Origin: Spirochaetota bacterium
GTDB taxonomy: Bacteria > Spirochaetota > Spirochaetia > Treponematales > UBA12059
DNA length: 45,370 nucleotides
Reading direction: 5' to 3'
NCBI GenBank assembly: GCA_026398615.1
Contig: JAPLSN010000034.1
Coordinates: 1 to 45,370 of the forward strand
Positions 3,170 through 43,449 of the stretch are shown one piece after another. The notes beneath the pieces are model-generated. The model did not search any database and had not been told where the DNA came from. It was given only the letters and a program-made list of their open reading frames with translations. Each line of letters begins with the position of its first letter. Position 1 is the first letter of the stretch. Both the position numbers and the translations under genes were made by a program.

Positions 3170-4005
3170 AACCTGAGCATCCTGAACTCTCGATCGCAAA
3201 GCAATGCGAGATTCTGAGTATCAGCAGATCCGCCTATTACTATAAACCGGAGCAGACTGAAGACGACCGGGAGCTCGCAATCTTGAAAGCCATTCTGGAA
3301 ACTCTTGCGAGACGCCCATTCTACGGCTATCGCAAAGTAGCCCGGGAGCTCGCGGACCTTGGCGTTACTCGCAAACAGGTTCGACGAATCATGAAGCGGG
3401 CTGGTTTGCGGGCCATCTATCCGGGAAAGCGAACGAGCATGGCGGCGAAGCACCACAAGAAGTATCCGTACCTCTTGCGCGGCAAGGGAATATGGCTACC
3501 AAATCAAGCCTGGGCTACGGACATCACGTATATCAAGCTCTCTGGATGCGATGTGTACCTCGCGGCGATCATAGACCTGTTCTCACGGAAGATACTCGCG
3601 TGGCGTATTTCAAATACGCTCGATGCGGAGTTCTGCGTAGCGGCGCTCGAGGAGGCGATCGCAATCTACGGCATTCCGGCGATCTTCAATACAGATCAAG
3701 GCTGCCAGTTTACGTCCGATGCCTTCATCTCAGTTCTCGAAGGGCATGGCATTCGGATCAGTATGGACGGCGTTAATCGGGCCTTGGACAATATCTACAT
3801 CGAGCGCTTCTGGAGGACCTTGAAGTACGAAGACATTTACCTCAGCGACTATGGGACGCTGATCGAGCTGAAGGCCGGGATCAAGCGGTACATGGATTTC
3901 TACAACGGAGAGCGGTTTCACCAATCGCACGATTACCTGACACCGGACGAAGTCTACGCGAGTAAGTTTCAGAGAAAAGAGAATCAACTATGCTCTGCCG
4001 CATAG
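3124..4005 (+). CDS. IS3-family transposase OrfB (DDE integrase domain)
   Basis: Open in the -1 frame relative to OrfA from the A9 run (3124-3132); the first in-frame ATG is only at 3283, so synthesis is probably as an OrfAB fusion by -1 slippage. The N-terminal part (VPATVRERAETVE, then ISRSAYYYKPE) is the linker region. Then come the HTH_21-like YGYRKVARELADLGV segment and the rve integrase core. The DDE residues are visible as Asp in WATDITYIKL, Asp in FNTDQGCQFTS and Glu in YIERFWRTLKYE. It catalyses copy-out/paste-in transposition through a circular intermediate in the well-studied relatives. The stop is TAG 4003-4005. Confidence 0.92.
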   Translation, partial: KKKVPATVRERAETVEPEHPELSIAKQCEILSISRSAYYYKPEQTEDDRELAILKAILETLARRPFYGYRKVARELADLGVTRKQVRRIMKRAGLRAIYPGKRTSMAAKHHKKYPYLLRGKGIWLPNQAWATDITYIKLSGCDVYLAAIIDLFSRKILAWRISNTLDAEFCVAALEEAIAIYGIPAIFNTDQGCQFTSDAFISVLEGHGIRISMDGVNRALDNIYIERFWRTLKYEDIYLSDYGTLIELKAGIKRYMDFYNGERFHQSHDYLTPDEVYASKFQRKENQLCSAA

Positions 4006-7037: not shown

Positions 7038-7649
7038 ATGAGATTCGAACTACCGGAGCTTGATTACTCTATCCTCATGCAGGCCCTTTCGGGATATTCG
7101 TATCCCCGTGATCGGGTTACCCGTCTACTCCGCTCGGGCGGATTGATCCGCGTAAAAAAAGGGCTCTATGTAACCAACGATCCCAGGGATTGGTATTCGA
7201 AGGAAGTGCTAGCCAACCTGGTCTACGGGCCATCCTATGTATCCCTGGAATATGCCCTGCGATTCCACGGTCTGATTCCCGAGGCGGTGGAAACCGTTAC
7301 GTCGGTTACCACACAGCGCCACAAGCGATTCGATACACCCTTGGGAAGGTTCGAGTACGAACACCTCCCGGAACGAATGTATTCATGCGGGATCGTATAC
7401 TTGCCCGCGGACACCCGGCGCGGGTTCTTCATCGGTTCGCCTGAAAAAGCGTTGATCGATACTTTGGCCTTGCGGACTCCGGGCTTGAAACCGGCTGATA
7501 TCGAAAAGCATCTCTTCGAGAATCTCAGGATAGACGAAGCGGATTTTTCCCGCCTTGATTTCTCGCATTTGGATCCCGTTTTAATAGATTGCGGGAAGCT
7601 TTCCGTCCGCTCGTTTTTTACCTTCCTGAAGCGGAGGTCATCGCTTTGA
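7038..7649 (+). CDS. abiEi: AbiEi-family antitoxin (type IV toxin-antitoxin)
   Basis: A 203-residue protein. The N-terminal winged-helix-like segment YSYPRDRVTRLLRSGGLIRV, followed by KKGLYV, is characteristic of AbiEi. The body reads YVSLEYALRFHGLIPEAVET, then VTSVTTQRHKRFDTPLGRFE and SPEKALIDTLAL, also family-typical. It acts as antitoxin and transcriptional autorepressor, here probably through the palindrome directly upstream. The start ATG 7038 lies three bases after that palindrome, giving a very short leader. The stop TGA overlaps the next gene's TTG start by 4 nt. Confidence 0.87.
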   Translation: MRFELPELDYSILMQALSGYSYPRDRVTRLLRSGGLIRVKKGLYVTNDPRDWYSKEVLANLVYGPSYVSLEYALRFHGLIPEAVETVTSVTTQRHKRFDTPLGRFEYEHLPERMYSCGIVYLPADTRRGFFIGSPEKALIDTLALRTPGLKPADIEKHLFENLRIDEADFSRLDFSHLDPVLIDCGKLSVRSFFTFLKRRSSL

Positions 7650-8512
7650 CTGATGCGTTGTCTACCCTCGTGGCCCGGAGGAATCCCCGGAGCTTCGAAG
7701 AATACGACCGTGCCCTCCGGGAAGTCGCGCAGGAATTCATGCTGCTAGGGCTGTGGCGCGGTAAATTTTTCGAGAAGGCCGCGTTCTATGGAGGCACGGC
7801 GTTACGACTACTGTATGGGCTGGACCGGTTTTCGGAGGATCTCGATTTTTCGCTTTTGCGACCGGATGAGGGATTCCGTTTCGATCCGTATTTCGACGCA
7901 ATAGGCCGGGAACTCGCCGCCCTTGGTCTGGATGTGGAGCTGGAGCACAGGGACAAGGATACTTCCGTCGAGTCGGCTTTCCTCAAGATGAACACAAGGA
8001 ATGCGCTGATAGTAATAGGCGTTCCCGGTTCGGTGTCCGCCTCAGCGGCACCCAACCGGCTGATACGTGTAAAATTCGAAGCGGATGTCGATCCGCCAGC
8101 AGGATTCGGAACGGAGATTCGCCTCCTCACCGAACCGTCCCCCATCGGAGTGCGTGCGTATACGGGGCCGAGCATGTTTGCAAGCAAGTTCCACGCCCTC
8201 TTGGCTCGTTCGTGGAAGAATAGGGTCAAGGGTCGGGACTGGTACGATCTGGTGTTTTTTGTAGGAAGGGGCATACCGATGGATCTTCACTACCTGCAGA
8301 GTCGGCTGGAAACGGCGGGTTCATGGACAAGTGGAGCGATGACGGCCAAGGATGCGTGCGCGATGCTCCATGGGAAAATCGAAGGGCTCGACATCGATGC
8401 CGCGCGGGAGGATGTCTCGCGTTTCGTCCCCGTTCCGTCCGATCTGGAGCTATGGTCCAAGGATTTTTTCCACCAGATAACGGATAGGGTAACGGTAAGC
8501 GATGCTGGATGA
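7646..8512 (+). CDS. abiEii: AbiEii-family nucleotidyltransferase toxin
   Basis: Encodes 288 residues from TTG 7646, overlapping abiEi by TTGA and preceded by GGAGG (7633-7637, spacer 8). The nucleotidyltransferase signature is FYGGTALRLLYGLDRFSEDL followed by DF (GGT at 49-51, D66-x-D68 region). Further conserved residues are Lys143 in RVKFEAD, Lys181 in ASKFHALLA and Asp198/Asp201 in KGRDWYDLVFF. AbiEii is a bacteriostatic NTP transferase of DUF1814 type; homologues add nucleotides to tRNA. An upstream TTG at 7589 is also open but lies inside abiEi without a ribosome-binding site. All key residues look intact. Confidence 0.87.
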   Translation: MTDALSTLVARRNPRSFEEYDRALREVAQEFMLLGLWRGKFFEKAAFYGGTALRLLYGLDRFSEDLDFSLLRPDEGFRFDPYFDAIGRELAALGLDVELEHRDKDTSVESAFLKMNTRNALIVIGVPGSVSASAAPNRLIRVKFEADVDPPAGFGTEIRLLTEPSPIGVRAYTGPSMFASKFHALLARSWKNRVKGRDWYDLVFFVGRGIPMDLHYLQSRLETAGSWTSGAMTAKDACAMLHGKIEGLDIDAAREDVSRFVPVPSDLELWSKDFFHQITDRVTVSDAG

Positions 8513-27360: not shown

Positions 27361-28485
27361 GTGACGCATCTCGTTACCGGCGCGGCCGGGTTCATAGGAT
27401 TCCATCTCGTCCGGAGGCTCCTCGAGCGGGGGGACGACGTGGTCGGGATCGATTCCATCAACGGCTACTACGATCCGGCGCTCAAGTTCGACCGGCTCGC
27501 GGAGCTGGGCATCGGGGCCGAGGCCGCCGAACCCAACCGTCCCTGCGCGAGTTCCCGATACCGGGGTTTCACCTTCCTGCGCTGCTCCCTCGAGGACCGG
27601 GCCGGATTGGAGGATCTGTTCGGGCGGATGCGCTTCGACCGGGTCTGCAGCCTGGCCGCGCAGGCCGGCGTGCGGTACAGCATCGAGAATCCGCGCGCCT
27701 ACGTCGAGTCGAACGTCCTCGGCTTCCTCAACGTGCTCGAATGCTGCCGTTCCGCGAAGACACCCCATCTGGCCTTTGCGTCCAGCTCCTCCGTTTACGG
27801 CCTCAACGCGACGAGGCCGTTCAGCGAACACGCGGGCGTCGACCACCCGGTCAGCATGTACGCGGCCACCAAGCGCGCGGACGAGTTGATGGCTCACGTG
27901 TACAGCCACCTGTACGCCCTGCCGACGACCGGCTTGCGCTTTTTCACCGTCTACGGGCCGTGGGGACGGCCGGACATGGCCTATTTCCGCTTCGCGAGGG
28001 CCATCCTTTCAGGCGAACCGATCGACGTGTACAACGACGGGAACCTGCTGCGGGATTTCACCTACATCGACGACATCGTCGAAGGCATCGTCAGGATCAT
28101 CGACCGGATTCCCGCCGGTGATCCCGCTTGGCGGACCGAGCGCCCCGATCCGGCTTCCTCGAGCGCGCCCTTCAGGATCTACAACATCGGCAACAACCGG
28201 CCCGAACGGATCCTGGACTTCATCCGGGAGCTCGAGACGGCGCTCGGGCGGGAAGCGGTCAAGCGTTTCCTGCCGATGCAGCCGGGCGACGTGTACGCGA
28301 CCGAGGCCGACGTCGCAGACCTGGAACGCGACTTCGGCTGGAAGCCGACGACGAGGCTCGCGGAGGGCCTGCGGCTTTTCACGGCGTGGTTCAGGGAGTA
28401 TCGGGATCGGGAACAGGATCCGGACGCGTATTTTCGTAGCGCAGGTCCAGGCCCTCGGACGGGGGCGTCATGCACAGGCCCGTGA
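27361..28485 (+). CDS. NAD-dependent epimerase, UDP-glucuronate 4-epimerase-like
   Basis: A 374-residue short-chain dehydrogenase/epimerase. The NAD motif is TGAAGFIGFHLVRRLLERGD, IDSINGYYDPALK is typical of UDP-glucuronate 4-epimerases, and the catalytic site is SSSSVYG plus MYAATKRADE (Tyr-x3-Lys). LRFFTVYGPWGRPDMAYFRF and DGNLLRDFTYIDDIV complete the match. It converts UDP-GlcA to UDP-GalA in relatives. The C-terminus runs about 28 residues beyond the usual end (YRDREQDPDAYFRS onward), antisense to the convergent beta-helix gene with 95 bp of overlap, so the native stop may have been lost. Confidence 0.87.
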   Translation: MTHLVTGAAGFIGFHLVRRLLERGDDVVGIDSINGYYDPALKFDRLAELGIGAEAAEPNRPCASSRYRGFTFLRCSLEDRAGLEDLFGRMRFDRVCSLAAQAGVRYSIENPRAYVESNVLGFLNVLECCRSAKTPHLAFASSSSVYGLNATRPFSEHAGVDHPVSMYAATKRADELMAHVYSHLYALPTTGLRFFTVYGPWGRPDMAYFRFARAILSGEPIDVYNDGNLLRDFTYIDDIVEGIVRIIDRIPAGDPAWRTERPDPASSSAPFRIYNIGNNRPERILDFIRELETALGREAVKRFLPMQPGDVYATEADVADLERDFGWKPTTRLAEGLRLFTAWFREYRDREQDPDAYFRSAGPGPRTGASCTGP

Positions 28486-29515
28486 ACACGCAGTCCGAGA
28501 AGACGATCGTCCCGCGCGGCTTCGTTTCGAGGCCGTTGAAGTAGAGCGAGACGGGATGGTCGTCGACGATTGTCGTTTCGATGCGGATCGTCTGTTCGCC
28601 CGAGTCGGGCTTGAGCCTGCCGAACGAGAACAGGAGGCCCGGTCCCTGGTTGTCCGAGATGATGCAGGAGCGGACGACGCAGTCCCTGAAACCCGGGTCC
28701 CGGGAGTTGGGCTCGAAGTCGATGCCCGCGCCCGGGAGCGCCCCGCCCGTTCCCCGCAGCTCGCAGCCTTCGATGAGGAGGCGGTCCGCGGAAATGACGC
28801 TCACGCCCTGGCGATGGTGGTCGAGGAGGATGAGGTCGCGAAGGACGAGATCGGCGCAGGGTATCCTGCCTTCCGGTCCGTTCGAAGTCCCGACGTAGAC
28901 CCCGTCGCCGCCCGAGGACGAAATTTCCAGTCCGGCTATCTCGACGCGCGAGACTCCGCGCAGGGACAGCGCGTGCCGCCACTGCGAAGGCTCGTATGGC
29001 GGCCGCTGGTAATCGGATTTCTTCATCCGCCACGCCGCGCCATAGCCGCTCACCCGCAGGTCCCCGACGCCGTTCGCCTCGAAGAGGCAGTCGCCGGATG
29101 TACGGAATGCCCCTTCGGCGGCCCGGACGACGACGCCCTCTCCGAATATCAGCTCCAGCCCGCCGCGGAGCTCGATCGTCCCCGAGACGATCCATGGGGA
29201 TCCCATGTTGGGTACATAGACCGTCGCCGCGCCCGAAGCGATGGCGGCCCTGATGCTTTCCGTCGCGTCGGCGGAGTCGAAGCCCCACCATGCCGCGCTC
29301 ACCGCGCCGTTACCGATGCCGCCGGTCGATCCGGACAGGGCCGAGCAGCCGGATGCCGACCACGCTTCCTCCAGCGCGGCAATCCTCGCGGACTGGGCGG
29401 CGCGTCCCGGGAGACCGGTCCTGTCAAGGGACGGCCCCAGTTCCCGGGGAATGCGGTGGACGCAGGACGCGAGCAGCGGGACGAGCATGGCAATACGGAG
29501 CGCGCGTATGTTCAT
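28391..29515 (-). CDS. Right-handed beta-helix lipoprotein
   Basis: A 374-residue protein with a lipoprotein signal MNIRALRIAMLVPLLASC (lipobox LAS-Cys18). The mature part has repeated short beta-strand turns (IELRGGLELIFGEGVVVRAA, LRGVSRVEIAGLEIS, LVLRDLILLDHHRQGVSVI, LLIEGCELRGTG), as in pectate-lyase-fold proteins that bind or cleave polysaccharides. The fold is inferred. ATG 29515 is chosen because it directly precedes the signal peptide; the frame is open upstream to 29689. It could process or bind the polysaccharide made by this cluster. The 3' end overlaps the convergent epimerase. Confidence 0.75.
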   Translation of the reverse strand: MNIRALRIAMLVPLLASCVHRIPRELGPSLDRTGLPGRAAQSARIAALEEAWSASGCSALSGSTGGIGNGAVSAAWWGFDSADATESIRAAIASGAATVYVPNMGSPWIVSGTIELRGGLELIFGEGVVVRAAEGAFRTSGDCLFEANGVGDLRVSGYGAAWRMKKSDYQRPPYEPSQWRHALSLRGVSRVEIAGLEISSSGGDGVYVGTSNGPEGRIPCADLVLRDLILLDHHRQGVSVISADRLLIEGCELRGTGGALPGAGIDFEPNSRDPGFRDCVVRSCIISDNQGPGLLFSFGRLKPDSGEQTIRIETTIVDDHPVSLYFNGLETKPRGTIVFSDCVFTGLCMTPPSEGLDLRYENTRPDPVPDPDTP

Positions 29516-29636
29516 GGCCCGTTCATCATGCCCGATTTCGGGCGAGTCCAACAATCGCCAACCGCCGTTTTCAACCTTGCGCCGCTTGCACGGCCAGGAG
29601 CGTTCGGATAGAGTGGCACGCGCAGGAATTCCAGGC

Positions 29637-31007
29637 ATGGCAATGATATCGCGAAGGCTCGACCAGTTCGTCATCTTCCTCGTCGACATCGTCCTTCTCT
29701 ATGGGAGTTTTTTCCTGGCTCTCGCCGTCTGGGAAGGCGCGGAGCGGGCTCTCGTACCGTGGGCGGCGAACGCGTTCGCGTTCGCGTGGATCGCCGCCCT
29801 GTGGGTGCTCGTTTTCTATACCGCAGGATTGTACGTCGTCGACGATCCCTTCGACGGCACGCGATTTTTCAAGCATTTCATCGTGGCCTCGGCGGTCGCC
29901 GGGCTCGCGTCCTTCGGCTTGCTCCGCGTCGTCTGCGGCGGGATCGATGTCATCCGCGACGCTTCGGCCGTCTTTCCGGGCATCGTCGCGATCATCGTCT
30001 GGACATGGCGTTTTTCCTACGCGCGGATCAGGCGGTTCTTCCTTCCCAAGGTCGGGGTCGCTTTCGTCGGCTACAACGCGGGCGTCGCGGAGCTCGCCTC
30101 GGAAATGGCCGCGCGGCCCCACATGGGGTACGAAGCGCGGCTCGTGTACGATCCCTCCGGAGCGACCCCGTCGTGCGCGGGCCCGGAATGCGTCGCCGGT
30201 CGCGACGCGTTCGTGGAGCGAGCCGCCGTCCGGGACATCGGTCTCGTGATCATCGCCCGCAGCTCGGCCGTCGACGAAGACGCACGGAAGGCCGTCTTCG
30301 GCCTACTCGCCCGGCCGGTCCGCTACCTTGGCCTGCCCGAATTCTATGAGTCCTTCCTCCGCAAGGTCCCGATCGGCGACATCGACGAGCTCTGGTTCCT
30401 CGAGAAGGTGGATCGGAACGGCACCAGACCCTACGCCATCGCCAAACGCGTCACGGACATCCTCGTCGCGACCTCCGCCATGCTGTTGAGCCTCCCGTTC
30501 TGGCCGCTCGTCGCCCTGGCCATCAAGCTCGGGAGCCAGGGGCCCGTGCTCTTCCGGCAGCGGCGCCTCGGCCGCTTCGGCAAGCCGTTCACGATCCTCA
30601 AGTTCAGGACGATGAGGACCGACCTGAACGATTTCGCGCCGACCGGCAAGGACGACCCGCGCGTGACCGCCTTCGGGGATTTCATGCGCAAGTCCCGGAT
30701 CGACGAGATCCCGCAGATGCTGAACATCCTCATGGGCGAGATGAGTTTCGTGGGACCCCGTCCCGAGCGGCCCGAACTCGCCATCGAGCTGGAAAAGGCG
30801 ATCCCCTTCTACCGCGAGCGCCTGCGGGTGAAGCCGGGGATCACCGGCTGGGACCAGGTTTCCGGGGAATACCATTCCCCCTCGGTGGAAGATACGTACA
30901 AGAAACTCCAGTACGACCTCTATTACATCAAGAACTACTCGGTGTTCCTCGACGTTTCGATCTTCTTCAAGACCATCTTCACGGTGTTCATGCGGGCGGG
31001 CCGATGA
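29637..31007 (+). CDS. Polyprenyl phosphoglycosyltransferase (WcaJ/WbaP-like initiating enzyme)
   Basis: A 456-residue enzyme with about four N-terminal membrane segments (residues 8-125), a CoA-binding-like Rossmann domain (VGVAFVGYNAGVAELASEMA) and the C-terminal bacterial sugar transferase domain after another hydrophobic stretch. Catalytic-domain motifs are FTILKFRTMRTD, SRIDEIPQMLNILMGEMSFV followed by GPRPERPE, and RLRVKPGITGWDQVSGEY. It transfers a sugar phosphate to undecaprenyl phosphate, starting each repeat unit. AGGAA lies eight bases before ATG 29637. It is divergent from the beta-helix gene (121 bp apart) and overlaps the next permease gene by ATGA. Confidence 0.9.
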   Translation: MAMISRRLDQFVIFLVDIVLLYGSFFLALAVWEGAERALVPWAANAFAFAWIAALWVLVFYTAGLYVVDDPFDGTRFFKHFIVASAVAGLASFGLLRVVCGGIDVIRDASAVFPGIVAIIVWTWRFSYARIRRFFLPKVGVAFVGYNAGVAELASEMAARPHMGYEARLVYDPSGATPSCAGPECVAGRDAFVERAAVRDIGLVIIARSSAVDEDARKAVFGLLARPVRYLGLPEFYESFLRKVPIGDIDELWFLEKVDRNGTRPYAIAKRVTDILVATSAMLLSLPFWPLVALAIKLGSQGPVLFRQRRLGRFGKPFTILKFRTMRTDLNDFAPTGKDDPRVTAFGDFMRKSRIDEIPQMLNILMGEMSFVGPRPERPELAIELEKAIPFYRERLRVKPGITGWDQVSGEYHSPSVEDTYKKLQYDLYYIKNYSVFLDVSIFFKTIFTVFMRAGR

Positions 31008-32455
31008 GACTCCTCCTGAAGCTCGCGTTCCGGAACCTGGTCCGGACGCCCCGGAAAACGTTCACGATCGGGATTCTCGTGGCCATCGGCCTGTGCTGCA
31101 TGCTCGTCGGCAACGCGGTCATAGATGGATCGGAGAGAGGCCAGCGCCGGATGTACATCGACGGTTTCACCGGGGACTTCGCCGTCGGGGCGCGCACCGG
31201 TGAGCTGTATTCGCTCTTCGGCAACATCGACCCGGTGCTGGCCGAGTACTCGGAAACGCCCGTGCTGCCCGGGGCCGAGGCTATCAAGGCGATCCTCGAT
31301 TCCGATCCGGCGGTGGCCGGCTCGGCGTACCAGGTTTCCGCCGCGGCGAGCGTCAGGTGGGAGGGCTACAAGTCCACCAAACCCGTGTTCGGCGTGGGAT
31401 CGGATTACTTCCGCATGCTCGGTTCCATCAAGATCGTCGAGGGCCGCGCGATCCTCGACGGCGAGAGTGCGATCGTGATTACGAAGGCGATGGCTGACGC
31501 CGCGGAGAAGGCAGGCGGGCACCGTCCAGTACCCGGCGACGTCTTCCAGCTCGTTTCCGGCTCCGATACCGGGTTCGCGATCCGGGAAGTCCCGCTCGTC
31601 GGCATTTCGGAGTACGCTGCCCCGAACGCAACGCTCGACGCCATCACGCTCGTCGACCTGGAGACCGCCAGGGCGATGGCGGCCGTGACCATCGGTTCAG
31701 CCATGGGGGAACCCGGAGGACAGGCTCCGTCGGTGCTCGAGGGCGGGATCGATGACCTGTTCGGCACGGAGTCCGCAGGGTCGGTGGCGTCGGAGGGCGC
31801 AGGCATGGACCTGCAGGACATCGAACGGCAGGTCGCCGAGAGGACGGAACGGCCCGTCGGCATCGCAGGCGGTGCCAGCCATTTCATCCTGGTTCGCCTC
31901 GTTCCCGGCACCGACGCGAAGGCGTGGGCTTCCCGCGCGGCCCGGCGTATCGATGAGACCGGGTACGAGGCGGGTATCATCGACTGGCGGACGGCGGCGG
32001 GGATGAGCACCCTGGCCGTCTTTGCGCTCGGCATTATCTTTGACGCCGGTTTCGGCATCGTCGCGGCGGGCGCCGTCGTCATCATCATGAATTCGCTCGT
32101 CATCACCGCGCTCGAGCGCACGAGGGAAATCGGCACCATGCGGGCATTGGGCGCGTCGAGGAGCTTTGTCAGCCTGCTCTTCATGACGGAGACGACGATG
32201 ATAACGTCGGTTTTCGGGGTCGCCGGCATCCTTGCGGCCCTGGTGCTCTCCGCGGTCGTGGGCATGCACGGCATCCCGATGGGGAACCCCCTGCTCGTGA
32301 CCCTGTTCGGCGCCACCGAGCTCCGGCCTTTGGTGACGCCGGGCCTCGTCGCGTCCCACGTCGGCCTGTCTGTCCTCATGGGGGCGGCCGCGAGCCTCTA
32401 CCCCGTTATCCTCATCATGAGACTGGCGCCTACGACAGCGCTGTCGGCCGAGTGA
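31004..32455 (+). CDS. ABC transporter permease, FtsX/MacB-LolCE type
   Basis: A 483-residue permease with the FtsX topology: one N-terminal membrane segment (about 20-40, after AFRNLVRTPRKTFTIGI), a large periplasmic domain, and three C-terminal segments. The signature ALERTREIGTMRALGASRSF precedes the third segment. LolCE-type permeases extract lipidated substrates from the inner membrane. The insertion between about 205 and 275 is Gly/Ala-rich. It overlaps the sugar transferase by ATGA and is followed by a second permease, but no ATPase gene is nearby. Confidence 0.85.
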   Translation: MRLLLKLAFRNLVRTPRKTFTIGILVAIGLCCMLVGNAVIDGSERGQRRMYIDGFTGDFAVGARTGELYSLFGNIDPVLAEYSETPVLPGAEAIKAILDSDPAVAGSAYQVSAAASVRWEGYKSTKPVFGVGSDYFRMLGSIKIVEGRAILDGESAIVITKAMADAAEKAGGHRPVPGDVFQLVSGSDTGFAIREVPLVGISEYAAPNATLDAITLVDLETARAMAAVTIGSAMGEPGGQAPSVLEGGIDDLFGTESAGSVASEGAGMDLQDIERQVAERTERPVGIAGGASHFILVRLVPGTDAKAWASRAARRIDETGYEAGIIDWRTAAGMSTLAVFALGIIFDAGFGIVAAGAVVIIMNSLVITALERTREIGTMRALGASRSFVSLLFMTETTMITSVFGVAGILAALVLSAVVGMHGIPMGNPLLVTLFGATELRPLVTPGLVASHVGLSVLMGAAASLYPVILIMRLAPTTALSAE

Positions 32456-32459
32456 CGGC

Positions 32460-33740
32460 ATGACCGCACGGATCGCGTTCAGGAACCTTGTGCGGCAGAA
32501 ACGCCGCTACGGCCTGCTCTTCGCGGCGATCGCGCTCGGGTTCGCCGTCGTCACGCTTCTGGGGGGTATGAGCGGGGGCATGACGGTCAGCCTCAGGCGG
32601 AAAGCCAAGTCATACTATGGCGGAGACATCACGATACTCGGGCATAACCGACCTGATTATTTTTTAACGGTGCCGGATTTCCCGGCGATCAGGAATGCCG
32701 TCATGGAGCTCGGAGTCGCCGACCTCGTGGTGCCCCGCGGCAATGTCTATTCGGGGGGGTCGGTGTTCTTCGGCGGAGCCATGATCAGGCAGAAACGGAT
32801 CACAGGGACCGATTTCGCCGTGGAATGGCCGCGTTTCGCCACGATGGACTTCGTCGAGGGCAGGCCCGACGGCCTGGCGGAAAACGGGGGCATCATCCTC
32901 TCGGAAGCCACCGCGAATCGGCTCGGCGCCAAGGTCGGCGACGAAATAATGGTGCTGCTCACAAGCTTTGGAGGGCAGAAAAACACCGGCGTTTTCATCC
33001 TGCGTGGCATTTTCCGCGACAACAGCCTCTTCGGTTTCTACACGGCCTACTGCGATATCGGCCAGCTCACGACGCTCACACTGCATCCGACCGGGATCAC
33101 CGATGTCGGCGTCTGGCTCAAGCCGGGAATCGATCCCGCCGCGGCGGCGGAAAAGGTACGGGCCGTCATGGAACGCGAAGGCCTGCTCGTGTTCCCCGTC
33201 ATCCACCGCAAGGACGTGTATGACCTGTACAAGGCGAAGAGGGACTGGACCGGCGTGAAGTACGCGATCCTGACCCTCGACGCCCACCTGTACGAAGTGA
33301 AGGATTTCCTCGACGCCATACGGGCGGTAACGTATTTCCTCCTCGGGGTGTTTGTGATCATAGTGACGGTCGGCATTTCCAATACGTACCGCGTCGTCGT
33401 CTTCGAGCGGACCCGTGAAATCGGCACCATGCGTGCCATCGGGATACAACGCCCGGCGGTCCGGGCCATCTTCCTGTACGAGGCGCTGGGGCTCGGGATC
33501 GCGGGCTCCATCGCGGGTTTCGCGCTCGGCTTGGCGGCGCTCTCGATCGTCGCGGGGATCGACCTTTCCGGGGTGCCCGGTTTCCAGATGTTCCTGGAAC
33601 GGAACCGCCTGCGCTGGGACCTGGAACCGGCGATCGTCGCCCTCGACGCGGTCATCGTCTGCCTTGCCGCGGTGGTCGCCGCGTGGCGGCCCGCGTCCAG
33701 TGCGGCATCCATCGAACCCGCCGACGCGCTGAGGAGTTGA
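32460..33740 (+). CDS. ABC transporter permease, FtsX/LolCE type (second subunit)
   Basis: A 426-residue permease with the same layout: AFRNLVRQKRRYGLLFAAIA at the N-terminus, a periplasmic domain, and the FtsX signature VFERTREIGTMRAIGIQRPA before the last two membrane segments. It starts 4 bp after the first permease, so the two likely form a heterodimer. The C-terminal PADAL is typical of MacB/LolC-like permeases. A LolD-like ATPase must come from elsewhere in the genome. The substrate could be a lipoprotein or glycolipid; the next two genes favour outer-membrane delivery. Confidence 0.85.
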   Translation: MTARIAFRNLVRQKRRYGLLFAAIALGFAVVTLLGGMSGGMTVSLRRKAKSYYGGDITILGHNRPDYFLTVPDFPAIRNAVMELGVADLVVPRGNVYSGGSVFFGGAMIRQKRITGTDFAVEWPRFATMDFVEGRPDGLAENGGIILSEATANRLGAKVGDEIMVLLTSFGGQKNTGVFILRGIFRDNSLFGFYTAYCDIGQLTTLTLHPTGITDVGVWLKPGIDPAAAAEKVRAVMEREGLLVFPVIHRKDVYDLYKAKRDWTGVKYAILTLDAHLYEVKDFLDAIRAVTYFLLGVFVIIVTVGISNTYRVVVFERTREIGTMRAIGIQRPAVRAIFLYEALGLGIAGSIAGFALGLAALSIVAGIDLSGVPGFQMFLERNRLRWDLEPAIVALDAVIVCLAAVVAAWRPASSAASIEPADALRS

Positions 33741-33742
33741 CA

Positions 33743-34510
33743 GTGAAGAGAGTCCGAACCCTTGCCTGCCTGTGCGCGTTCGCGGCCGTCCAGGCGGTCG
33801 TGGCCCAGGCGGATTTCAAGGCCCTGCTCGCCAAGGTCGACGCCCTCGTTTCCTTCGACGGCGATTTCTCGGCCGAGTATACCGTCATGCAGGAAAATCC
33901 CGGGGTCGGTACGAGCGTGACGACCCTGGCCATGTTCCGGCGCGACAAGGCGTCCAAGTACCTCATACTCATCCTGAAGCCGGAATCCGACAAGGGGAAG
34001 GGCTACCTGAAGATCGACGGGAGCCTCTGGCTCTATGACCCGGTGGGCCGCTCGTTCACCTTCACGAGTTCGCAGGAACGCTTCCAGAATTCGAACGCGC
34101 GCAACTCAGATTTCACGCGTTCGACCCTGGCCCTCGACTACGATATCGCGGGATCGAAACGCGAAAAACTCGGAAAATTCGACTGCTGGGTGCTGGATCT
34201 CAGGGCCAACAACAACGAAGTCTCCTTCCCGAAGATGCGCGTGTGGATCAGCGACGACAACCTCGTGCGGAAGAGCGAGGATTACAGCCTCTCGGGGCAG
34301 CTGATGCGCACCACCGCCATTCCGACCTACCAGAAGGTCGGCGATCGCTTCGTCCCCGTGGACATCTACCTCGTGGACGCGCTCAGGGGCAAGACCATCA
34401 ACGGGAAGTTCCAGAGCGAAAAAACGAAAATCTCGGTCGCGAAGCCCTCGCTGGCGCCGGTGCCGGATTCGGTGTACTCGAAAGCGTACCTGGAAAAGGT
34501 AGGAAAGTGA
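33743..34510 (+). CDS. LolA-like outer-membrane lipoprotein-sorting protein
   Basis: A 255-residue periplasmic protein. Signal peptide residues about 1-23 (ACLCAFAAVQAVVAQA). The body matches the LolA-like family: SFDGDFSAEYTVMQENPG, LILKPESDKGKGYLKIDGSL, LYDPVGRSFTFTSSQERFQN and a late VWISDDNLVRKSEDYSLSGQ. Such proteins bind lipid in an open beta-barrel groove. GTG 33743 has GAGGAG six bases upstream. It lies between the permeases and an outer-membrane barrel, suggesting it shuttles the permeases' substrate across the periplasm. It is not assigned to lolA itself because the family has several branches. Confidence 0.82.
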   Translation: MKRVRTLACLCAFAAVQAVVAQADFKALLAKVDALVSFDGDFSAEYTVMQENPGVGTSVTTLAMFRRDKASKYLILILKPESDKGKGYLKIDGSLWLYDPVGRSFTFTSSQERFQNSNARNSDFTRSTLALDYDIAGSKREKLGKFDCWVLDLRANNNEVSFPKMRVWISDDNLVRKSEDYSLSGQLMRTTAIPTYQKVGDRFVPVDIYLVDALRGKTINGKFQSEKTKISVAKPSLAPVPDSVYSKAYLEKVGK

Positions 34511-35715
34511 GTTTCCTGCCGCGCCGGCTGCTTGGCGCGCTCCTGGCCGTTTCCTGCCTCGGGCCGTTCCTCGCTGCCCAGGACGCCGCGCCGCCTGCGG
34601 AAGCCTCCCCGGGCGGCGAAGAGGCACCCGCACCTGGCGAAACGACCATCGACGACGACATGTTTTCGGACGCTCCTGATGACGTGGTCGCCGAGGTCCC
34701 GACCGGCACCGTACTCGATGAATTGGAGCGCGGCAAGCTCCTGGCGTGGAGCGGCTCGGTTTCAGCCAGAGCGCTCGCGTCCGCCGGCTGGGAGACGGTG
34801 CCCTGGAATGGCGGTGCACTGGACGGTTTCACCGCCGGCGGCGGCGGTTCCTTCGCGTCGACCCTCGCGTTCGACGTCAGACCCGACGGCATCACGCGCG
34901 TCCACGGCGCTTTTACCACGGAATACCCGGATTTCGTCCCTTACGCGAAAGAACTGTTTCTCGACTACGATCTTGCGTCTGTCGTCTATTTCCGCGCGGG
35001 ACGGCAGGTTCTCTCGTGGGGAGCCGGGCGATTTTTCAAGGACGGCAACCTCGTGGCGGACAGCGAAGAGGGCGCGGCGGTGAAAGCCGGCGTGCCCGTG
35101 GGCAGGCTCGGCCTGTCCTTCGTGGCCATCGACAGACCCGCGTGGCATTCCGGCGAGGCCGCGCTTCGGGAAATCGCGGTCGGGCTCATGTCCGATATCG
35201 CGTTCGGCACGACCGAATTCTCGCTTGGGGGCCTGTACCGGGCCGTCGAGGGCGGAAAAGCCGTCGCGACGGTCAAATCGTCGCTCTGGGGCTTCGACCT
35301 TTACGGCGACGCGGTCCTCAGGCTGTCGACGTCGTACGAGCCCGCGTATGCGGCGCTCGGCGGCTTCTACTGGGATCACGTCGACCCGTCCATCCGTCTT
35401 GCCGGTGAATATCGTTTCGCATCTTCCGATTTCGTCGACCCGGGCCATGCCATCGCGCTGGCGGTCCTTTTCCGGAAACTCGGCGGATCGTCCGTGGACG
35501 CGGGCGTGCGCTGGGATCACGATTTCGGTTCGGCGAGCGGCCAGGTGACTCCCGGGCTTTCCCTGTCGCCCTGGCGCCGCGTCGATGTCGTCATCGGACT
35601 GCCGTTCGCGTACGGGTCGGACATGGTCATCGAATACGGCGATGAAGAGGATCCGGAGCTGTTCCCGGGTTCCGCGGCGGTGATCATCGCCGTCACCGTG
35701 ACCGTCAAATTCTGA
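34507..35715 (+). CDS. Predicted outer-membrane beta-barrel protein
   Basis: A 402-residue protein overlapping the LolA-like gene by GTGA. The signal peptide ends near FLAAQDA, followed by an acidic, Pro-rich linker of about 50 residues. The rest alternates hydrophobic strands and charged turns (FRAGRQVLSWGAGRFFKDGN, VGLMSDIAFGTTEFSLGGLY, DVVIGLPFAYGSDMVIEYGD). It ends in VTVTVKF, with the terminal aromatic residue typical of Bam substrates. It resembles barrels found beside LolA-like proteins in transport operons. Function unknown; probably the terminal receptor or channel of this transport unit. Confidence 0.75.
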   Translation: MSFLPRRLLGALLAVSCLGPFLAAQDAAPPAEASPGGEEAPAPGETTIDDDMFSDAPDDVVAEVPTGTVLDELERGKLLAWSGSVSARALASAGWETVPWNGGALDGFTAGGGGSFASTLAFDVRPDGITRVHGAFTTEYPDFVPYAKELFLDYDLASVVYFRAGRQVLSWGAGRFFKDGNLVADSEEGAAVKAGVPVGRLGLSFVAIDRPAWHSGEAALREIAVGLMSDIAFGTTEFSLGGLYRAVEGGKAVATVKSSLWGFDLYGDAVLRLSTSYEPAYAALGGFYWDHVDPSIRLAGEYRFASSDFVDPGHAIALAVLFRKLGGSSVDAGVRWDHDFGSASGQVTPGLSLSPWRRVDVVIGLPFAYGSDMVIEYGDEEDPELFPGSAAVIIAVTVTVKF

Positions 35716-39970: not shown

Positions 39971-40924
39971 ATGAAGAAGCTCATTTTCGTGACGGGCGGG
40001 GTATGCTCTTCATTGGGCAAGGGCGTCACCGCGTCGTCCTTGGGATGCCTCCTCGAGGCGCGCGGATTGTCCGTGCGCATGGTGAAGATCGACCCCTGCC
40101 TCAACGTGGACGCGGGAACGATGAATCCCTACCAGCACGGCGAGGTCTACGTCACCGACGACGGCGCGGAGACCGATCTGGATCTCGGCAATTACGCCAG
40201 GTTCACCAACGCCGTGGCCGACAGCCCCGAGGTCGACGTGACGATCGTCGAGATCGGGGGGACGGTGGGCGACATGGAATCCATCCCCTTCCTCGAAGCC
40301 GCCCGCCAGCTCATCCACGAGGCGGGCAAGGAAAACGCCGTATCGGTGCATGTCACCCTGGTGCCCCGCGTCTCCGGCGGCTTCGGGCAGCGCGGGATCC
40401 TCGGGATGGTCAGGGCCGCGCGGTGGGCGCGGGAAAACCGCATGCCGTACTTCGGCATCTGCCTCGGGATGCAGATCCTGGTGATCGAGTACGCGCGTAC
40501 CGTCCTCGGCTGGGCTGACGCCAACTCTTCCGAATTCGACCAGGAAACCGCCCATCCGGTCGTCAGCCTCCTCGAAGAGCAGGTCGACGTGAGGAACTAC
40601 GGCGGGACGATGCGGCTCGGGCGCAGCGAGTCGGTGCTCAAGGAAGGCACGCGCGTGCGCGAAGCCTACGGGACGGCATCCATCCACGAACGGCACCGGC
40701 ACCGTTATGAATTTTCGAACGCCTTCAGGGCCGACCTCGAAAAGGCCGGACTGCGCATCTCCGCTCTCACGCCCGACGGCGGCCTCGTCGAGTCCTGCGA
40801 ATGGCCCGATCATCCATGGGGTGTCGGCGTCCAGTTCCATCCTGAATTCAAGTCGCGGCCGGTGGCGCCGCGTCCCCTGTTCGCAAAATTCATCGGCGCG
40901 TGCACGGCGTATGGCGGGAAATGA
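39971..40924 (+). CDS. pyrG: Internally deleted CTP synthase-like protein (317 aa)
   Basis: The N-terminus is unmistakable Pyr[41 protein letters not shown] and LDLGNYARF. The C-terminus is the GATase-I domain with the nucleophile Cys164 in [28 protein letters not shown] and His290/Glu292 in QFHPEF. Full-length PyrG is about 540 residues. Two in-frame segments are missing: about 46 residues after Phe78 (including FTTGRIY) and about 170 after Pro132 (including the UTP-site TKPTQHS motif and the interdomain linker). P-loop Lys17, Asp71 and Glu94 remain. It is either a neofunctionalised mini-PyrG or a decaying gene. It overlaps lptC by 14 bp. Confidence 0.8.
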
Positions 40925-41822
40925 CCGGCCGGCGGCTGACCGAAATGCCGGTCCGCGCCGCCTGCCCCTGCCCCGCTGCGGGTTCGGCCCGGAGGCCGTC
41001 GCGTTCTGCCTTCTCCTCGGCGCGGCAGGATCGTCCTGTTCCTTCGATTACGGCTCGCCGATGGACGAGGAGCTGGATGAGCAGGTACCGAACTACGTCC
41101 TCTTCGAGTACCGGCACACCGTCGCCGAGCGCGATGCCCCCGTCATGAAGCTGACCGCCGAAAAGGCCGAAATCTACGAAAAGACGAAACGCACCCGCGC
41201 GGATTCCCTGACTTATATCGAGTACGATCGCGACACCGGGGAGATCGTCGCCGAGGGAAGGGCGGATTCCGCCGTCTACCATGTCGATTCCGGCAATGCC
41301 GAGCTCTCGGGCAGTCTCGTGTTTTCCGCACCCGGGGACGACCTCACCCTGGAGACGGAATCCCTCGAATGGAAGAAGGAAGCCCGCAGGCTCGAAGGCC
41401 GCCGCGACCAGCTCACGACGATCCGCCGAAGCGACGGCACCGTCATCCGGGGATCGGGATTCGCCGTCGACGCCGCCACGAAGACCGTTTCGTTCCGCGA
41501 GCACGCGGAAGGGACCGTGATCGTCAACGAGTCGGATGACGGCGAAACGTCCGCCGGGACGCCGCCTCCCGAAGCCGCCGCGGCAACTTCCGTTGCGCCG
41601 CCGCCGGATGCCGCCGAGCAACCCGACGCCGATGCCCAGGCCGGTCCCCCGGAACCGGCAAGTCCCGACGCTTCCGGGGTGAATCCGTCCGGTGAGCCGG
41701 ACGGCGAAACGGCTCCGGGCGTTTCCGGGGCGGCTGCCGACCCCGTTCTTCCGGAATCGCCTGAGTCGATCCGCCACCGAAACAGGGCTGATTTCGAACC
41801 GATCTACGGGGTCGGCCAATGA
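40911..41822 (+). CDS. lptC: LptC-like LPS export protein, lipobox-bearing, with Pro/Ala-rich tail
   Basis: A 303-residue protein. A hydrophobic segment ending GAAGSSC suggests a lipoprotein anchor. The LptC-type beta-jellyroll occupies about 60-205 ([77 protein letters not shown]). The final 90 or so residues are Pro/Ala/Asp-rich and not part of the usual fold. In the Lpt machine LptC links LptB2FG to LptA in the periplasm. ATG 40911 overlaps the pyrG-like gene. The ATGA overlap with lptA supports the assignment. Confidence 0.83.
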
Positions 41823-42529
41823 AGGCTTCCGCCGTGTTCCTCGCGCTTGTCCTGTCCGCCTCTGCGGTCGCCGCGTCCGCCGACCAGTTTTCCTTTTCCG
41901 CCGATTCGATGACCAGCACCCGTGCCAAGGGCAAGGAGCGGACGATCCTGAAGGGCAGTGCGAAGATCGTGTCCGGAGGGACCGTCATCACGGCCGCCTG
42001 CATCGAACTCTACGGAACGGACTACCGCTTTGCGCTGTGTACGGGCCAGGTCACCGCCGTCGACGAACAGCGCGGGATGCGGCTCATGACCGAGAACCTG
42101 TACTACGACCGCGTGGACAAGGTGAGCCGGCTCGAGGGTTTCTCCACCCTGGAGGACAAGAAGAACAAGCTCGTCATCAAGGGAGGCTACATAGAGAATG
42201 ACGAACGCACCGAAATCGCCGTGATACGGATCGGGGTCAGGGTCCTCAAGGATGACATGGTCTGCCGCTCCGAATACGCCCGCTACGACCGCGCCGGGAA
42301 ATCCTTCGAGCTCTCGGGAGATCCCCGGGTCAAGTGGAAGGGCGACGATTACTCGGCCGAGATCATCATCGTCGATCTCGAGACGGACGATATCGTCATG
42401 AAGGGATCGGTGCGCGGTTCCCTGACGAAGGAAGATCCCCCGGCCGTACCGAAGGGCGAAGCGCCCGCAGAGCCCGCGCCCCCGGTTCCCGGCGATGCGC
42501 CAGGCGGCAGCGAGGCGGGCCAGCCATGA
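41819..42529 (+). CDS. lptA: LptA/OstA-like LPS transport periplasmic protein
   Basis: A 236-residue OstA-like protein with a signal peptide (ASAVFLALVLSASAVAASA). The jellyroll shows FSADSMTSTRAKGKERTILK, GSAKIVSGGTVITAACIELY and LMTENLYYDRVDKVSRLEGF, the repeating strands that form the LPS bridge. The last 35 residues are Pro/Ala-rich. LptA bridges LptC to LptD at the outer membrane. It overlaps lptC and lptB by ATGA at both ends, so the three are translationally coupled. Confidence 0.87.
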   Translation: MKASAVFLALVLSASAVAASADQFSFSADSMTSTRAKGKERTILKGSAKIVSGGTVITAACIELYGTDYRFALCTGQVTAVDEQRGMRLMTENLYYDRVDKVSRLEGFSTLEDKKNKLVIKGGYIENDERTEIAVIRIGVRVLKDDMVCRSEYARYDRAGKSFELSGDPRVKWKGDDYSAEIIIVDLETDDIVMKGSVRGSLTKEDPPAVPKGEAPAEPAPPVPGDAPGGSEAGQP

Positions 42530-43449
42530 GCGACGGGACCGGCATCCCGCCGCCGGACCGCGACATTCCGCAGGGCGACGGAAAGCCCGCGGATGAGGCG
42601 CAGCCCTGGGAGTCGCGGGGCGTCGAGACTGCCGCGAGTTCGGAAGACGCCGTCAGGATCGACGAGGAAGCCCGGGCGCCCGAGGAATCCGCGGCGGAAG
42701 CGGAGGCCGCGCACCCGGAATCGCTCAACGTTCTCGAGGTCACGGGTCTGCGCAAGCGCTTCGGGCGCACGGAAGCCGTGGCCGGCATCGATTTTTCGAT
42801 GAAGACCGGCGAGATCGTCGGCCTGCTCGGACCGAACGGCGCCGGCAAGACGACGGCGTTCTACATGGTCGTCGGCTTCATCCGTCCCGATGGCGGTTCG
42901 ATCTACCTGGACAATTCGGACATTTCCCGCCTGCCGATGTACAAGCGCGCGCGCCGCGGGATCACCTACCTTCCCCAGGAACCTTCCATCTTCAGGAAGC
43001 TGTCCGTGGAGAAGAACGTCTGGGCCGTGCTCGAGACGCGGGCCGACATCGACATGAAGGCCAAGAAGGCGATACTCGAGGAGCTTCTCGACGAATTCGG
43101 CATCGAGCACATCCGCAGGCAGCCCGCCTACACCCTCTCCGGAGGCGAGCGCCGGAGGACGGAGATCGCGAGGGCGCTGGCCATCGAACCCAAGTTCCTG
43201 CTTCTCGACGAACCCTTCGCGGGCATCGACCCGATCGTGGTGAGCGAGATCAAGAACATCGTGCGGCATCTCGCGAGCCGGGGCATCGGGGTGCTGATCA
43301 CGGACCACAACGTCCGCGACACCCTCGAGATCACCAACCGGGCATACATCATCAACCGTGGGGAAATCCTGGTGTCGGGCGACCGCGACGTGATCCTCTC
43401 GTCCGAACTCGCGCGGCGGATCTATCTCGGTGAAACCTTCAGGATGTGA
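42526..43449 (+). CDS. lptB: LPS export ABC transporter ATPase LptB, with acidic N-terminal extension
   Basis: A 307-residue ATPase. Walker A is GPNGAGKTT, the Q-loop ITYLPQEPSIF, the signature LSGGERRRTEIARAL, Walker B KFLLLDEPFAGID and the switch His is in LITDHNVRD. The GETFRM C-terminus is typical of LptB. The first 67 residues are an acidic, Pro/Ala-rich extension absent from the usual LptB of about 240 residues. LptB powers LPS extraction with LptFG, which are not in this window. The coupling to lptA makes ATG 42526 the natural start. Confidence 0.92.
   Translation: MSDGTGIPPPDRDIPQGDGKPADEAQPWESRGVETAASSEDAVRIDEEARAPEESAAEAEAAHPESLNVLEVTGLRKRFGRTEAVAGIDFSMKTGEIVGLLGPNGAGKTTAFYMVVGFIRPDGGSIYLDNSDISRLPMYKRARRGITYLPQEPSIFRKLSVEKNVWAVLETRADIDMKAKKAILEELLDEFGIEHIRRQPAYTLSGGERRRTEIARALAIEPKFLLLDEPFAGIDPIVVSEIKNIVRHLASRGIGVLITDHNVRDTLEITNRAYIINRGEILVSGDRDVILSSELARRIYLGETFRM

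Follow-up and report, generated by a model that had tools for sequence, protein, structure and literature searches.

We analysed a 45,370-nt stretch (the window; positions 1 to 45,370 of contig JAPLSN010000034.1, assembly GCA_026398615.1) of a Spirochaetota bacterium of the order Treponematales, and describe therein a module of four genes, i.e. two FtsX/LolCE-type permeases (PERM1 and PERM2), a LolA-like periplasmic carrier and an outer-membrane beta-barrel, which lacks an adjoining LolD ATPase. On balance, our data favour a putative type VII ATP-binding cassette (ABC) exporter, composed of the permease pair, the carrier and the barrel, with LolD supplied in trans; as judged from sequence comparison, the motor is encoded apart and probably shared. 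Permeases, carrier and barrel would form a LolCDE/MacB-like export system relying on a LolD-like ATPase encoded elsewhere. The putative donor is the LolD of a complete sister module of the same genome (G000:C24:8036-8701), which may power its own permeases on contig C24, the window pair and perhaps a further ATPase-less set on contig C14.

Placement of LolD in the genome and among relatives

In agreement with the initial annotation, which had noted that no LolD adjoins the module and that LptB is the sole ABC ATPase of the window, an ABC hidden Markov model (HMM) matched only the LptB open reading frame (ORF) and an ORF antisense to it. When the nine LolDs of the genome served as tblastn queries, LptB was matched and no LolD remnant was visible within 29643-35715 (best row E 1.8), and a decayed LolD inside the module was rejected on these grounds. 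The window LptB was likewise rejected as the motor, scoring 107.7 bits with a LolD HMM compared to 361 bits for the C24 LolD, the HMM having been built from the nine LolDs of the genome, C24 included. LptB serves another ABC type.

The genome (3.38 Mb) contains 20 FtsX domains and nine LolD-like ATPases above 200 bits, each adjoining its own FtsX permease, and no free LolD above this score was found in it. An ATPase gene at C38:63807 (165.8 bits) was rejected as a free LolD, because it falls together with four further ABC ATPases (173-187 bits) and has unrelated ORFs as neighbours; it may be an energy-coupling factor (ECF)-type ATPase. FtsX pairs without an ATPase are found twice, in the window and on C14, where the set (L081:11843-16710) shows the order PERM1-PERM2-LolA-like-barrel. 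The nearest relative of the C14 set, L217 in genome G001, has a LolD upstream. The closest complete paralogue of the window module, on C24, is arranged as LolD-PERM1-PERM2-LolA-like-barrel, and its LolD shows the Walker A and B motifs as well as the signature motif.

Since this set of genes is found again in further genomes of the order, the module is not a chance arrangement. A PERM2 search gave matches in at least 112 of 146 genomes of the order, and 103 modules were annotated (100 fetched neighbourhoods plus the window, C24 and C14 sets). A tree of PERM1, PERM2 and the LolA-like protein from 94 of these, leaving out nine that were too short, yields clade I (42 modules) and clade II (52 modules: 17 IIa, 17 IIb and 18 IIc), with the window in IIa. 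LolD lies upstream in 41 of the 42 clade I modules, the exception being the C14 set, and in all 17 IIb modules. For 16 of the 17 IIa modules there is no LolD in the sequence available, of which three (L056, L092, L105) start at a contig edge and two (L091, L152) have less than 1.6 kb downstream; the remaining one (L104) has a convergent LolD. The IIc modules show a convergent downstream LolD (11/18), none (6/18) or one about 6.5 kb upstream (1/18).

A wider scan with an alignment of the LolA-like protein (the best 80 of 239 relatives, with titles naming spirochaetes; 13 copies of known loci were dropped) led to an enlarged permease tree of 161 modules, the others being without two long enough genes. 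Within its IIa-like group of 41 modules, LolD lies downstream in 12, is lacking in 10 that reach a contig edge and is lacking within 3.5 kb in 19. A further 20 weaker loci were added later and placed only in the largest permease tree. Thus, the placement of the ATPase is labile and the other four genes mostly stay together, except in L298, where the permeases lie on the other strand together with LolD. In L315, L326 and L327, LolA-like, LolD and barrel genes (the latter unrecognised in L327) were found with the permeases unrecognised.

The initial annotation had treated a LolD adjacent in close relatives as evidence against a borrowed ATPase, and such genes do exist: in three of the 17 IIb modules (L103, L107, L144) LolD sits between the sugar transferase and PERM1, i.e. 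at the very spot of the ATGA junction of the window, and it adjoins some IIa-like members as well. Because of these neighbours, we regard the system not as motorless but as dependent on an ATPase, the local copy of which was lost in the window version. The node joining IIa and IIc, on which the order of LolD losses and gains depends, has a support of only 0.211.

Both an operonic ATPase and an orphan LolD, which were to be sought in relatives, were found, the former in IIb and the latter in IIc. Five of the six IIc genomes without a nearby LolD (G055, G024, G051, G071 and the more divergent G083) harbour an unlinked I-type LolD among unrelated genes; that of G024 lies at a contig start, and that of G055 is about 62 kb away from the nearest FtsX match. 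The remaining genome, G117, possesses a complete clade I module, and an additional unlinked LolD from a different group is found in both G117 and G083. For the IIa genomes G000 (the present one), G001, G003, G022, G030, G041, G056 and G132, all LolDs listed with 200 bits or more adjoin an FtsX gene. Considering these unlinked LolDs in IIc genomes and FtsX-linked LolDs in IIa genomes, IIc seems to be served by an unlinked ATPase of its own, while IIa has either to borrow one from a complete system or to manage with none.

Discordant trees and conserved coupling helices

Two IQ-TREE runs were performed for LolD. The first used 79 of 167 LolDs, keeping the downstream, convergent and unlinked ones and sampling clade I and IIb partly at random; trimming left out the clade I LolDs L199, L210 and L218 of family f3. 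The second (87 taxa) added L199, L218 and five LolDs of later loci, with L210 and seven others left out. Upstream IIb LolDs form one clade (93.2/100 with 79 taxa and 96.1/100 with 87), and the IIc and unlinked LolDs nest with the f3 clade I LolDs (97.9/100 and 98.2/99), falling in the 87-taxon tree inside L199 (81.9/96) and L218/L385 (89.5/97). Convergent IIa-type LolDs stand beside a clade I LolD in both runs (L206, 92/99, with 79 taxa; L375, 89.5/97, with 87), and the LolD of L298 groups elsewhere. LolD partners were assumed for L315, L326 and L327, which are without an annotated permease, and for L328 and L344, which begin inside the LolA-like gene.

The approximately unbiased (AU) test rejects trees keeping the clade II LolDs together (p 0.013, 0.0147 and, with 86 taxa, 0.006), as well as those keeping the clade I LolDs together (p 0.030 and, with 86 taxa, 0.014). 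In the permease trees, clade II modules are never placed within clade I, and in the tree with the 20 added loci clade I includes the f3 clade I permeases (0.99-1.0), the IIc permeases being placed with IIb (0.927). Because the LolD and permease trees disagree in this way, the simplest reading would be that clade II permeases can run on a clade I LolD.

The distribution of modules points in the same direction. A clade I module is present in 15 of 16 genomes with an ATPase-less IIa module vs 5 of 30 with a linked LolD (Fisher p 4e-7), and within family f5 in 3 of 3 vs 0 of 18 (p 7.5e-4), both p values being too good as the genomes are related. Presence of clade I was judged from the PERM2 matches listed, trees and annotation; the module of G038 falls in clade I, and G044 was counted as without one, though its contig fragment L377 falls in clade I.

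Both permeases possess the FtsX C-terminal domain typical of type VII ABC permeases (57.4 bits for PERM1 and 55.6 for PERM2, cut-off 25.5). MacB_PCD was recognised in PERM2 (49.6 bits), with no Pfam match in PERM1 at E 0.01, and a profile of 21 PERM2 relatives matches LolE, LolF, LolC and MacB structures. Neither permease reaches the LolC/E equivalog TIGR02212 (PERM2 68.2 and PERM1 24.6 bits, cut-off 362.45). Being encoded by two separate genes, they also differ from ADOP proteins, which have two FtsX domains in one chain (TIGR03434 14.3 and 36.1 bits, cut-off 622.3).

An ER..EIGTMRA.G segment, by its predicted placement relative to the transmembrane segments the coupling helix that contacts LolD, occurs in both permeases, and R317, E320, G322 and G328 of PERM2 are invariant among 21 aligned clade II proteins. 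The coupling segments of IIa PERM1 are 63 % identical to clade I and 52 % to IIb and IIc, the whole proteins being 28 % identical to each; for PERM2 the values are 49 % (clade I), 41 % (IIb) and 39 % (IIc). In clade I-specific similarity of 20-residue windows, the coupling helix ranks 2/464 in PERM1 and 26/407 in PERM2. Taken together, the three contact regions are closer to clade I than the rest of the protein in IIa (PERM1 p 0.0145, PERM2 p 0.0023) and give p 0.0124 and 0.063, respectively, in IIc. This similarity weakly suggests use of a clade I LolD by IIa permeases; a retained ancestral surface would look the same.

Several observations weigh against supply by a clade I system. In the IIb control, where the modules bring their own LolD, PERM2 gives the contact-region signal as well (p 0.0023; PERM1 0.31), and once clade I conservation is corrected for, the IIa signal is p 0.09 and 0.06, with IIb PERM2 at 0.0188. 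Co-occurrence tracks families, i.e. the genomes are not independent, and it becomes weaker (16/23 vs 5/30, p 1.6e-4) on adding seven IIc genomes without an adjacent LolD; moreover, a clade I module accompanied by its LolD is also present in five genomes with a convergent LolD. A co-directional downstream LolD group, found with clade I L172 in the 79-taxon tree (81.2/97), lies near the base with 87 taxa, and its nesting among clade I was dropped as it was lost when taxa were added. The permease split between clades I and II has a support of 1.0 in the 161-module tree and 0.598 with the 20 loci added, three of which are divergent. Finally, the present genome is a draft (43 contigs, 99.08 % complete), and in the IIa genome G038 two LolDs are located on contigs that gave no FtsX match, so that a free LolD may exist there.

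Overall, the interpretation of the initial annotation is supported in part: the largely ATPase-less sub-clade, unlinked LolDs, discordant trees and kept coupling helices argue indirectly for the borrowed ATPase, the adjacent LolDs of relatives being read as given above, and a glycolipid or glycoprotein cargo would be plausible in view of the neighbouring genes. It is tempting to speculate that one exchangeable clade I LolD powers several permease sets (C24, the window and C14) and that clade II is the missing glycolipid or polymer route in spirochaetes without a Wza-type exporter or recognisable LptD, though we hold this wider proposal only tentatively.

Cargo, carrier and alternative explanations

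The module is embedded in a polysaccharide locus comprising glycosyltransferases, a UDP-GlcNAc 2-epimerase, a UDP-sugar dehydrogenase, an epimerase and a CDP-alcohol phosphatidyltransferase. Polysaccharide markers, which were chosen from clade II neighbourhoods and thus favour this clade, occur near 12/17 IIa, 7/17 IIb and 6/18 IIc modules, i.e. 25/52 for clade II vs 0/42 for clade I. No Wza (PF02563) was found in this genome, and among 15 genomes it exceeded the cut-off only in G003 and stayed below it in G016. LptD (PF04453) had no match in this genome and matched one of 15 (G013), though a divergent LptD may be missed by this profile. LptC-, LptA- and LptB-like genes are present at 40707-43449 despite the lack of an LptD profile match in the genome, G013, the only one matched, being 1.1 Mb in size. 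Based on the markers near the modules and the lack of Wza and LptD matches, the most likely cargo would be a glycolipid or lipid-linked glycan produced by the adjacent polysaccharide genes, a less firm inference than that on the motor. A possible cargo type is the lipooligosaccharide of Treponema denticola, for which a diacylglycerol anchor is described (PMC3776326).

The carrier has a LolA fold, as evidenced by a profile match over the curated cut-off (PF17131, 119.8 bits, cut-off 30) and by its structure model (mean predicted local distance difference test score, pLDDT, 87.8), which matches 4z48 (Z 24.5; root-mean-square deviation 2.2 over 220), LolA3 of Porphyromonas gingivalis (9tp6; Z 24.4) and 3buu (Z 24.1), with 3bk5 also among the best LolA-superfamily matches. 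Membership in this superfamily would also fit a sorter for a glycosylated or special class of lipoproteins rather than a glycan exporter, and for a comparable Borrelia cluster, lipoproteins are named as a possible cargo (PMC13078400). Given the distribution of the polysaccharide markers, with the bias in their choice stated above, we regard such a sorter as possible but rather doubtful.

For the barrel, no Pfam family was matched at E 0.01. Its AlphaFold2 model is confident and porin-like (mean pLDDT 81.3; 263 of 402 residues at 90 or above), with Z values of about 20 to Occ porins and AlgE and of 18.6 to Wzi, which are not discriminating; the 50 best rows comprise porins and other barrels (AlgE, Wzi, usher), and an Omp85 type is still compatible. 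Naming a cargo from the fold was rejected due to these tied values. In the mature N-terminus, an acidic D-D-x-F motif, which may be a periplasmic docking site, contains an invariant F53 and a D50 conserved in at least 90 % of 38 aligned barrels; clade I barrels carry a similar motif. By pattern, a D-D/E-L-F-type motif was matched in 54 of 72 barrel ORFs, some of which, including that of the window, started too far upstream for testing.

As to the ATPase, the coupling helix of PERM1 finds its best match among the complete systems of the genome in C24 PERM1 (15/20 identical), and among all nine such systems C24 has the best BLOSUM scores (73 and 75 for the two permeases). With scores of 72 and 65, C41 comes second and nearly as close, and its gene order is LolD-permease-permease-LolA-like, so that another complete system of the genome, e.g. 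C41 or the canonical LolCDE-like C2, could be the donor. We consider this unlikely, given that the LolDs accompanying clade II modules in other genomes are mostly of clade I type or IIb type and the C41 LolD (G000_LOLD_L112) is outside both, and that the C2 helices score low against the window permeases.

Alternatively, no ATPase may be needed at all, the permeases being a passive scaffold or sensor that links synthesis with the carrier. Permeases of the FtsX type also occur as orphans, the ADOP proteins, and no LolD lies near 29 of the 41 IIa-like modules, 10 of these being at a contig edge. Against this, LolD does lie downstream in the other 12, and the coupling helices are among the most conserved stretches between IIa and clade I (rank 6/464 windows in PERM1 and 2/407 in PERM2), making an ATPase-free function improbable. 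That a dedicated ATPase lies in the missing part of the draft assembly is least likely of all, as the same absence recurs in G001, G003, G022, G030, G041, G056 and G132, with G038 as a possible exception.

Locus layout and relation to known systems

The four module genes and the upstream sugar transferase (Table 1) share one strand with ORFs at the expected positions, and the close spacing noted in the initial annotation was verified: every junction is an overlap or a 2-4-base gap, i.e. an ATGA overlap coupling the initiating sugar transferase to PERM1, as had been stated, 4 nt between PERM1 and PERM2, 2 nt between PERM2 and the LolA-like gene and a GTGA overlap before the barrel, whose terminal Phe was also confirmed. 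The sugar transferase exceeds the TIGR03025 cut-off (341 vs 296 bits).

Table 1. Features of the module and its surroundings in the window
Feature	Position	Strand	Basis
Initiating polyprenyl-phosphate sugar-phosphate transferase (EPS_sugtrans)	29643-31007	+	Pfam Bac_transf 1.3e-62; TIGR03025
PERM1, FtsX/LolCE-type permease, 483 aa	31004-32455	+	Pfam FtsX 1.9e-15; clade II in permease trees
PERM1 coupling helix, predicted LolD contact, kept	32114-32173	+	Alignment and window scan
PERM2, FtsX/LolCE-type permease with MacB-like periplasmic domain, 426 aa	32460-33740	+	Pfam FtsX 7e-15, MacB_PCD 7.8e-13
PERM2 coupling helix	33405-33464	+	Alignment
LolA-like periplasmic carrier, 255 aa, GTG start, signal-peptide-like N-terminus	33743-34510	+	PF17131 1.4e-34
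Outer-membrane beta-barrel, 402 aa, GTG start, terminal Phe	34507-35715	+	Structure model
Acidic D-D-x-F motif, mature barrel N-terminus	34651-34689	+	Barrel alignment
LptB, outside the module	42334-43449	+	Sole ABC ATPase found in the window

Elsewhere in the window, a right-handed beta-helix protein ORF (28391-29689, minus strand) is divergent to the sugar transferase, the start of which it may overlap. Two further genes within or next to the polysaccharide locus encode an integrase-core (transposase-type) protein (3283-4005) and an AbiEii-type nucleotidyltransferase (7589-8512). The CTP synthase match at 39971-40924 (317 aa), the sole one in the genome, is shorter than its counterparts in five aligned relatives by two stretches of 47 and about 170 residues, both missing cleanly and in frame, reflecting either an assembly error or an odd gene; in other genomes the N-terminal domain is in one piece in 18 of 23, partial in one and absent from four.

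The module resembles the LolCDE-LolA pathway in its two FtsX-type permeases with a coupling helix and its LolA-fold periplasmic carrier, and differs in having no local LolD, in a PERM2 score below the lolCE cut-off (68.2 vs 362 bits), in the barrel within the gene run and in its linkage to a sugar-polymer locus. The Borrelia cluster BBJ23-29, as far as described in PMC13078400, likewise combines type VII ABC parts, a LolA-like carrier and an outer-membrane barrel, but has its own ATPase (BBJ26), one permease proposed to be a homodimer, an Omp85-type barrel and tetratricopeptide repeat proteins. In the AmeABCD cassette of Castellaniella defragrans an inner-membrane pump is encoded with a LolA-superfamily (DUF1329) protein and a DUF1302 outer-membrane protein; the pump is a resistance-nodulation-division protein and not an ABC permease pair (PMC6394551).

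Precedents for one ATPase serving several permease sets encoded elsewhere are MceG, common to Mce1 and Mce4 of Mycobacterium tuberculosis (PMC9947336), and FhuC of Staphylococcus aureus, described as energising several separately encoded permease sets (PMC10147376). As these sources present them, both belong to uptake systems, whereas the window module would be a type VII exporter, with the sharing deduced from genomes and trees. Neither the module nor a shared type VII ATPase was recognised among the matches listed in the open-licence PMC literature. The known kind is thus LolCDE-like export with a LolA-like carrier and a barrel, and what is new is a motor whose gene lies apart and which is probably shared. 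If this is correct, different permease sets of Lol/MacB-type exporters can share and exchange an ATPase, in the way known for MceG and FhuC, and the module would be a candidate glycolipid or polymer route to the outer membrane in spirochaetes without a recognisable Wza or LptD.

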